Shown here: positions 41,612-48,982 of the stretch, one piece after another
Numbering within the stretch: the first letter of the stretch is position 1
Layout: every line of letters begins with the position of its first letter
Source: Deuterostichococcus epilithicus
Lineage: Eukaryota > Chlorophyta > Trebouxiophyceae > Prasiolales > Stichococcaceae
Length of the DNA stretch: 64,000 bases
Direction: 5' to 3'
Assembly: GCA_033439295.1 (NCBI GenBank)
Contig: JAVTLE010000015.1
Coordinates: 1,240,001-1,304,000 of the forward strand
The notes under the pieces: model-generated
What the model was told of the DNA's origin: nothing
The model's input: the letters and a program-made list of their open reading frames with translations, nothing else
The model's database searches: none
Made by a program: the position numbers and the translations under genes

Positions 41612-44600
41612 TCAAATGATGCCTATCTGGTGCGTCTTGAGGGCGCGCTTGACGTGCAGGTGCTTCAGGTCGTCCAACGCCCGCTCTTCGGCCGCCGGCA
41701 CATTTCCAGGCGCCGTGTCGCCGCTGAGCTTGCGCGCGGCATACGCCTTGCGCGAGCGCCGGATCCTGTCAGGCAGCTCCAGGTACATGTCGCCAAGCAC
41801 CTGCACAGAGATATGCACAGCTTGAACAGAGTGGTCAAGACTGGCTGATCGCACCTTCAAGTCTACTCTCCTAGCAGTATGGATCAATTGGGTTGCTTGG
41901 ATCGGCAGCTGAGTACATGGTAGGCGGCGGGTAAACACCATGGCAATGAAACCTGGTTACAGGCAAAGCGATACGCACCTTGCTGGTCTCGTGCAGCACG
42001 CGCTTGTTCTCGGGGTCCCGGTGGTCCCAGCCGTACAGCCCAAACTTCTTGTCCCACCCGTCTGCACCCAGTGAAGCAGTAGATGAGAGGGCAGTCCATC
42101 GTGCCCTCAAAATGTCGACATGCATGCCGAGAGGTCTTGGTTGCAGTAGGGTTGCGATGCCTCACAGGCCCATTCGAAGTTGTCAATGAGCGTCCACATG
42201 GTGATGCCGCGCACGTCGTGCCCGTCCTCCACCGCCCGGACGATCTGCGCCACAGACGGATCCGGAATCACCTTCTGACGATCACCTTCTGCGGGTCTAC
42301 ACAGATGAGGGTTTTGGGTTCAGGGCGACACTTCACCTGGCGGGCCCACCCTAATTTGCCAGGAGACAACGGTGGCAGGTGCATTGCAAAAGTGTCTCTC
42401 ATCAAGGGGCAAGCACACCTCGTCGAGGTAGGCGCGGAAGAAGGCCGGCCGCTTCAGGGTGGTGTGATCGCAGATGCCGGTCTCCGTGATGTACAGCGGC
42501 ACCCCAATGCCCGCTATGGCCGCGATGGCGTGGTACAGCCCCGGCGCATACGCCGCAAACGGCATGTCGGTGGTCATGTCGCCTTTGCGGTGCGTCGGCT
42601 GCAGCGTCCAGTCGATCATGCCCCTGTGCACAGGCGGAGCGCCGTCAGCGCTGCAGGGAAGAGTACGGTCATGGCGGCAATGCCAGGAGTTCTGACAGCC
42701 TGCAGTGTGCTTGATCGGCCGCTGCACTGCGGCTGGATTTTGGATCATGTGGCCGCCAGGCGTGAGATTTTCCGTGAGAAAGTCTGAGACAAGCTGCGCA
42801 CCTGCCATAGTAGTTCAGCCCAACAAAGTCGCAGGGCGGGCGTCCGCCTGGGTGCTGCCACGTAAATCCAGCCGAAAAGAATTTGGGCCACACAAAAGCG
42901 CCCGACTTGAAGAACTCAATGGTCAGGTCGTTCCCCTGCCAAGGCCACAGCATGAAACCCGCTCAGCAGATCAGCCGTGGGAGAGAACCAGCGTGATGCC
43001 GTTAGTCATGGAATGCCGGCCTGCAAGGCCGATGACTTGAGGTGAACTATACGATCCCAGTCCACATCATTCATGCTACCGTAAAGCGCACCCAGCACTT
43101 GTTGATGACCTCCACGATGGGGCCAACCCAGGCGGCCGAGATGGATACGGGGTATTTTGGTTCGTATGTCATGTAATTGTGCACGATGCCCACCTGCGCC
43201 TGGTCACCACCTGCATGGCTGTGTGACACGTCAAGAGAGGCCCTCAACACCGATCTGCAGGAGCGTTTGGCGCAACGTGCATGTAAAAGGGCAATGATTG
43301 GTATGACGCCGAGGGCACTGCCATGCAGGCTGGGATGCCCCGCTGGCATTGGCACCAGCAGAGGTGACAGCGAAGCTACTGATGGCAGGGCGAGCAGCTG
43401 TCTGGCGACACGGCAGCTCGCAACGCACCGGGAGCCGCCTTGATGGCCTCGTACGCCGCGATGTGCGCCTGGTACATGTGCAGGAACATTTTGCCCGCGG
43501 CGCCAAAGCGGAAGAATTTTGCGGGCGGGAAGCTGCCGTAGATGTAGCTGCAAAAGACCTGCACGTTGACCTCGTTGAAGGTGGCCCAGAGCCTGGTGCG
43601 GCGGCCAAAGTGCCTGTGTGCCGCATGAAGCAATATGACTTGAGGCGGCTACATCGTCTCAACTCTGGGGTACAGACGCCGGACGACTGCGCAGGGGTCT
43701 GTCTCGTGCTGCTCTGCCGCATGCCCGCTCTGCTGCTCAAGCATTCTTAATAAAAGCGAACAGCTTGTGAGCTCAACAGCCTAGCAGCACACGCATGGTA
43801 GGAAGCCCTCACTTGAAGGCGACCCTGGTGAACTCCACAAAGTACTGGATGTTCTCCTTCTTCTCCCAATGGCCCAGCTCCTCAAACCACAGCGGGTGCA
43901 CAAAGTGCATCAGCGTCACTGTGGACTGCATGCCCAGCCTGCAGCACTTTGACCAAGTCTTAACAACAGATAAACCACACAAACTAATTTCAATTGCGTG
44001 GTCCAGAAGCAGCCAGTGTTTGATGCCAATGCCTGTGCTTGGACAGCCGCCAGAGGCGGCAATGCACTAAGCAGCTGATGCACTGGTTCAGCTGCTGAAA
44101 CTGCGCAGGAGTCTGCCAGTGCTCGATTGTAGGCGGACCTTGCATGCATGTAGATGCAGCGCAAGCATGACTGACCTGTCCAGGACGTCGAATATCTGGT
44201 GGTAGCGCTGGACAGCCTCATGATCAACCTCCCCTGGCCGCGGCTGGATACGGGACCACTCGATGGACAGCCGGAAGAGCTTCACATTGAGCGCCGCCGC
44301 CCTCTGGATGTCCGCCTCGTACAGGTTCCAGAAGTCGTTGGACTTGCCGCACTTGTCGCCATTCTGCAAGCGCCGTGAGATACATGGGGATTAGCGCATC
44401 TGAATACGAGCGCCAATCGCTTCAGGTGCTGCTGCGAGTCACATAAGCAAGTCATGCATGCGGTCTGATGCTCACCGCGATGCGCGGCATGAACAGCGAC
44501 CGCTCGTTCTCGAACGCCTGCCAGTTGGTGTCGCGGCCGCCCGAGTTTTGGTATACACTGAGCGCAACGCCGCAGAGAAAGTCGGGCTCCGCGGCGTCGC

Positions 44601-45203: not shown

Positions 45204-45932
45204 ATGGGGCACAACGAGGTCTGGAACTCGCACCCGAAGGGCCACAGCAAGGGCGGCCGCGAGTGGTGCGACTCTCAATCACTTGGCTACTGGCCTGCGG
45301 AGCAGCCCTAGGGACTGTGGCTTTGCAGTTGCAGCTGTATATTCCATGCTGCACCCCGAGGAGCCTCGCATTGGGGTGCACAGCCCTGGTTAGGAATCAA
45401 TGGCATCCCCGGGATTGGCCATGAGCAGGCGTTTCCAGGGCGTCTTTGTGCCACAGACACGAGAATCCGATGTGCTTGCCTTGTATTGAATACTTCAGCC
45501 TGGGCAAAGCAGCTGGTTATGTGGCAGGTGCCCAGCGGCTGGCGGCGGCAGCTGCGCCTGCTGCCCTGCTTGAATGCTCAGCCGCCCGCAGAGGCAGGCA
45601 GCTGCTGGGGCTGGAGCCGGAGCTCCTGGCTAGTGCTGTGTCGCTGACGCATGTTGTGCATGCTCGCAGCCGCGTGTCCGGCAGCCACTGGGGTCTCATC
45701 CGCAAGTACGGCCTGAACATCAACAGGCAGAGCTTCCGCGAGCTCGCCAAGGACATTGGCTTCGTTAAGGTGAGCATGGCTTGGCGATGGGTGCCCGTTT
45801 ACATCGCTTTAATGAACCAGAGTGCGTTTGCTGTCAGTCAGCAATAGCCTTGCGCACGCTGACCTTCAAAGCAAAGCAATTGACATTGCCCTTGACATTG
45901 CCCTGGTTTCCTTCGCAATGCAGTACCGGTGA
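45204..45932 (+). CDS. RPS29: 40S ribosomal protein uS14 (RPS29), zinc ligands largely lost
   Basis: Three exons join exactly: 45204-45265, 45670-45769 and 45924-45932, with GT-AG introns of 404 and 154 bases. The product is 56 residues, the length usual for eukaryotic RPS29. It begins [14 protein letters not shown], has [10 protein letters not shown] in the middle, and ends [10 protein letters not shown], with YR encoded on the last exon. In normal RPS29 the zinc ribbon is CRVC and CRQC. Here the first pair reads CRVS and the second NRQS, so three of four cysteines are replaced. The rest of the conserved sequence is intact, with no frameshift or stop. It could be a zinc-independent (C-minus) functional copy or a young decaying paralog. 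The small-subunit head near the decoding site is the family's location. Confidence 0.92.

Positions 45933-46683: not shown

Positions 46684-48982
<2,299 letters not shown>

Follow-up and report, generated by a model that had tools for sequence, protein, structure and literature searches.

The window, that is, the whole stretch of 64,000 nucleotides of Deuterostichococcus epilithicus DNA that was analysed (G000:C13:1240001-1304000), carries a gene for the ribosomal protein uS14 (RPS29) at positions 45204-45932 on the plus strand. Translation of the spliced exons revealed three exons with an intact frame and a product of 56 residues. Exon 1 (45204..45265, +), supported by the translation and by protein searches of the organism's own genome, contained codons 1-20 and the TG of the codon for Cys21, which was split (TG|C) by intron 1 (45266..45669, +; GTGCGA...CGCAG). 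Exon 2 (45670..45769, +), supported by the translation, profile and protein searches, and the alignment, carried Ser24, Asn39, and Ser42 where three of the four zinc ligands would be expected. Intron 2 (45770..45923, +; GTGAGC...GCAG) was followed by exon 3 (45924..45932, +), which by translation encoded Tyr-Arg-stop and nothing else. Both introns were of the GT..AG type, and the exons joined in phase without an internal stop. The protein matched Pfam PF00253 with 41.8 bits (cut-off 27), and its sole NCBIfam match (E up to 0.1) was NF004424 (30S ribosomal protein S14), with a score of 53.8, just below the cut-off of 54. The PF00253 score, together with the family-standard length of 56 residues, identified the product as a cytosolic uS14. 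The flanking genes were ordinary: upstream lay a glycosyl hydrolase family 1 exon (minus strand, within 44091-44390), and downstream were spermidine synthase exons (plus strand, from about 46800 to 47450).

Loss of the zinc ligands and conservation of the core

The four-Cys (C4) zinc ribbon was missing from the window protein, in which the ligand positions 21, 24, 39, and 42 were occupied by Cys, Ser, Asn, and Ser, and Cys21 alone was kept. The codons at the three replaced positions were TCC, AAC, and AGC. Because at least four base changes over three codons would be required to reach these from TGC or TGT, a single sequencing error was ruled out. A broader base-calling or assembly error at the Cys codons would fit with the eS26 gene of the same assembly, where the reading frame of the tail looks discontinuous and small errors are possible, but the residues found here were of the same class as those in K. 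lactis and S. pombe, and we regard such an error as exceedingly improbable.

Six C4 references shared 33 invariant positions, and the window protein was changed at three of the four ligands among them versus four of the 29 others (Fisher p = 0.023, ligands versus non-ligands); the test is weak, since five of the six references were land plants. Of the 27 positions that do not vary across the eight references, 24 were kept and three were changed. The non-ligand core is largely conserved. G or C occupied the third position in 52 of the 55 RPS29 codons (start and stop excluded; counted for RPS29 alone, without comparison genes), which is compatible with a maintained gene. A decaying RPS29 pseudogene could account for the loss of three of the four ligands usual in the family and for the changes at four of the 29 other invariant positions. 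Against this, the frame was intact, both introns were in phase, the core was mostly kept, and the third positions were G or C in nearly all codons; moreover, no replacement cytosolic uS14 gene was found in the genome searches described below, and similar substitutions are present in the ribosomes of two yeasts, K. lactis and S. pombe. Decay of the gene was therefore considered very improbable.

These results agree with a sequence-only reading of the same DNA, which had described an intact three-exon gene for a uS14/RPS29 of 56 residues lacking three of the four zinc Cys. Its argument that this was no processed pseudogene was borne out by the two in-phase introns and the frame without a stop inside. 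The zinc-independent protein that it proposed is likely, because an intact, intron-bearing gene has lost three of the four zinc ligands.

Copy number of uS14 in the genome

uS14 is essential for life. The genome (46.8 Mb in 21 contigs) was searched for its genes with the PF00253 profile (E up to 0.001), with the window protein, and with a C4 plant chain, presumably that of Arabidopsis (both protein queries with E up to 10). The profile matched three places in the 46.8 Mb, namely exon 2 of RPS29 in the window and two rps14 genes of the bacterial type. One of these (L001) adjoined an rplT frame on a contig of 211 kb, and the other (L002) was located near a cox1-like frame on a contig of 97 kb. 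The GC contents of the 3.2-kb loci around them were 30% and 29%, respectively, and that of the window locus was 59%. Because of the neighbouring frames and the low GC, L001 and L002 look like the plastid and mitochondrial rps14 genes, and their contigs look organellar. Short frames with repeated strings (NLEVLTDEIS, LFHKQRPN) were also seen at L001 and look like dispersed repeats. The two protein queries matched the two longer exons of RPS29 alone; exon 1 was matched at E 9.6e-8 with the window protein and weakly, at E 0.74, with the plant query. No second cytosolic uS14, C4 or other, was found in the 46.8 Mb by the profile or by either protein query. A C4 copy would be expected to outscore the window copy in the PF00253 and plant-chain searches, and since none was found, the window gene is most likely the only cytosolic uS14 of the organism. 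A C4 copy of RPS29 could lie in an assembly gap. The eight other zinc-ribbon ribosomal protein families were each found over the cut-off at one place in the 46.8-Mb genome (extra matches in some searches were below the cut-off), and therefore the assembly was not obviously short of ribosomal protein genes.

The same searches bear on the origin of the zinc-free form. By analogy with bacterial ribosomal proteins, the sequence-only reading had proposed a C-minus paralog that would serve when zinc is scarce, alongside a normal C4 RPS29, and had suggested a genome search for a second, C4 copy. Pairs of C+ and C- uS14 do exist in bacteria (PMC13090322 section 2.5), but the search was run and no C4 cytosolic RPS29 was found in the 46.8 Mb by any of the three queries, in an assembly from which none of the eight other zinc-ribbon families was missing. 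The paralog was accordingly not supported. With no C4 copy found to switch to, the analogy to the bacterial response to zinc limitation does not fit, and we hold a C-minus paralog to be improbable.

Other zinc-ribbon ribosomal proteins of the genome

Nine cytosolic ribosomal proteins with CxxC motifs are listed in section 2.5 of PMC13090322. The nine zinc-ribbon proteins compared in this genome were uS14, eS26, eS27, eS31, eL34, eL37, eL40, eL42, and eL43. In the exons that were read, all four Cys were kept in six of them (eS27, eS31, eL37, eL40, eL42, and eL43); for eL40, eL42, eS27, eS31, and eL43, the reading spanned more than one exon, joined by eye. The C4 ribbon was lost in the other three, uS14, eS26, and eL34. 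An intron likewise interrupted a zinc-ribbon Cys codon of the eS31 gene (L031, G000:C11:2085500-2088500), where the TG|GTGCG junction of RPS29 recurred (TG|GTGCGT, in-frame read-through judged by eye).

In the only eS26 gene found in the genome (L030, G000:C1:1338000-1341000), each of the two CxxC pairs lacked its second Cys (CEAS in VRCEASG and CISA in YYCISAA), with Ser in its place in the first pair and Ala in the second. The eS26 core scored 150 bits against PF01283 (cut-off 27). All 10 of the eS26 chains compared, from at least 71 in the PDB, were C4, with CxNC and CxSC pairs. Plant chains were the best PDB matches for both the eS26 and the eL34 of this genome, which, like the two putative organellar rps14 loci, points to an alga. 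The eS26 change is less expected than the loss in uS14 or eL34. At the 3' end of the eS26 gene, a Gly/Ala/Pro-rich tail, presumably of the kind found in plant eS26, seems to be out of frame with the core, which would reflect either a minor fault in the assembly or a genuine alteration of this tail. The second Cys of the second pair aligned with yeast Cys77, as counted on the query of an eS26 search of the PDB. The C77W mutation of eS26, which is linked to Diamond-Blackfan anaemia, leads to the accumulation of 20S pre-rRNA and to poor binding of the import receptors, and the poor binding has been suggested as a possible cause of the degradation of the mutant protein (PMC4161973).

The eL34 gene (L040, G000:C18:720300-722300) kept one ligand Cys, with the motifs CGATG and GGHLSHA; one of the eL34 matches crossed an in-frame TGA, which was taken for the start of an intron. 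The plant eL34 chains compared (5 of the 64 matched) read CPVTG and GGVLSG. In other organisms, eL34 has four Cys, according to PMC13090322.

A probable permanently zinc-free uS14

Taken from gene structure, copy number, and alignment, the window gene is very probably the one nuclear gene that encodes cytosolic uS14 (RPS29) in this alga, and its product a permanently zinc-free protein. The protein would fold as usual onto the 18S rRNA in the head of the 40S subunit. Its lone Cys would not suffice to bind a structural zinc, and the knuckle would have to be held by other contacts, which may be hydrogen bonds among Ser24, Asn39, and Ser42 in place of the zinc, together with packing on the rRNA and the neighbouring proteins of the 40S head. 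The zinc-free knuckle of uS14 from K. lactis and S. pombe would presumably be held likewise. With a uS14 of this type, each ribosome would need one zinc fewer at the uS14 site and would lose an oxidation-sensitive cluster of thiols. The uS14 data are explained equally well by drift with local compensation as by a benefit in zinc or oxidation.

It is about an even chance that at least two zinc ribbons of the 40S subunit, those of uS14 and eS26, have permanently lost their zinc, in addition to the land-plant-type loss in eL34, with six other C4 ribosomal proteins kept. If so, the ribosome would have been changed step by step, and in a fixed way, to spare zinc or to resist oxidation, and eS26 could function with Ala where yeast has Cys77. 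The loss in uS14 does not require that in eS26, because the eS26 of K. lactis (3j80_a) keeps all four Cys, unlike that of D. epilithicus. The combination of the two is the part worth following up. The accompanying change in eS26 would amount to a natural test of compensation at a position linked to human disease. Natural zinc-free ribosomal proteins reveal which metal sites of the ribosome are dispensable and which residues replace them.

Comparison with solved ribosomes

The window protein was compared with the PDB sequences by phmmer, and residues were compared for the five top-ranking matches of each query. It matched 61 distinct sequences (E up to 0.01), the 60 listed being named S29, S14, or uS14 (one eS29), and the best-scoring among the matches listed were eukaryotic cytosolic proteins. 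The top matches, in order, were 3j80_d (17 entries), a shorter version of 3j80_d, and 9axt_Aj (3 entries). All three lacked the same three Cys as the window protein, which was seen again with the K. lactis query. The listing of PDB chain 5it7_a bears a KLLA name, and the 48S complexes 3J80 and 3J81 were built on K. lactis 40S subunits (PMC4217140). The 9axt_Aj sequence is also present in entry 9AXV, a model of the S. pombe ribosome (PMC13345908). Residues were compared in 10 of the 61 distinct sequences, with protists, microsporidia, and animals outside the comparison; the four-Cys ribbon was present in seven of the 10 chains and absent in three (two K. lactis versions and one from S. pombe). 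The seven chains that keep it include S. cerevisiae and five plant chains. Except for K. lactis and S. pombe, the organisms of the chains are those that we take them to be (S. cerevisiae for 3j6x_29 and Arabidopsis for 9h3g_Ca). Over eight chains, the window protein was identical at 40 of 56 residues to the K. lactis chain, at 37 of 56 to six chains, and at 32 of 56 to the last.

Since C4 relatives occur on both sides (S. cerevisiae and plants), the loss of three Cys in the two yeasts and in D. epilithicus likely represents independent events. With K. lactis as the best PDB match, acquisition of the gene from a yeast was also considered, but it was judged unlikely owing to the N-terminus of the plant-chain type (MGH..VWNSHPK) and the two introns. 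In a collection of genome contigs, one of 95 pattern matches was confirmed as a relative (L020, a four-Cys uS14 from an archaeon), and none of the five pattern matches in a viral contig collection was confirmed. Within the portions covered of PMC13090322, PMC4217140, PMC13345908, PMC11508205, PMC7196836, and PMC4161973, a zinc-free eukaryotic uS14 was not described; the subscription literature was mostly outside this set, and absence from print is not claimed. Likewise, neither "uS14" nor "zinc" appeared in the main text, as far as covered, of the structure papers PMC4217140 and PMC13345908.

Among known systems, the bacterial C-minus uS14, such as B. subtilis S14BsC-, also lacks the zinc site (PMC13090322), but it is a paralog beside a C+ form, and no C+ copy was found in the D. 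epilithicus genome. The eL34 of land plants is, like the window uS14, a cytosolic zinc-ribbon ribosomal protein with one Cys kept, although it belongs to the 60S subunit, and its Cys loss is common to the land-plant chains (CPVT, LSG) and D. epilithicus (CGAT, LSH). The C4 uS14 proteins of S. cerevisiae (3j6x_29) and Arabidopsis (9h3g_Ca) had the same length and core and were each identical to the window protein at 37 of 56 residues, but unlike it had all four Cys. The S. pombe protein (9axt_Aj), also with 56 residues and 37 of 56 identical, kept the first Cys and had Thr, Ser, and Ser at the others, reading CAHTGRR where the window protein reads CRVSGSH. The closest likeness was to K. lactis uS14 (3j80_d), with 56 residues, 40 of 56 identical, the first Cys kept, and Ser at the second and fourth ligand positions in both; it differed in having Asp instead of Asn at the third position and a fungal N-terminus (MAHENVWYSHPR). 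The same loss in the solved ribosomes of two yeasts therefore points to a recurrent replacement, and its presence at three positions in the two yeasts and D. epilithicus suggests a repeatable route. The window protein, known here from its gene and the yeast proteins from solved ribosomes, shares with them the first Cys, three polar replacements, and the conserved core; a zinc-free uS14 of the kind predicted here thus has precedent in two yeasts, to which the window gene adds one.
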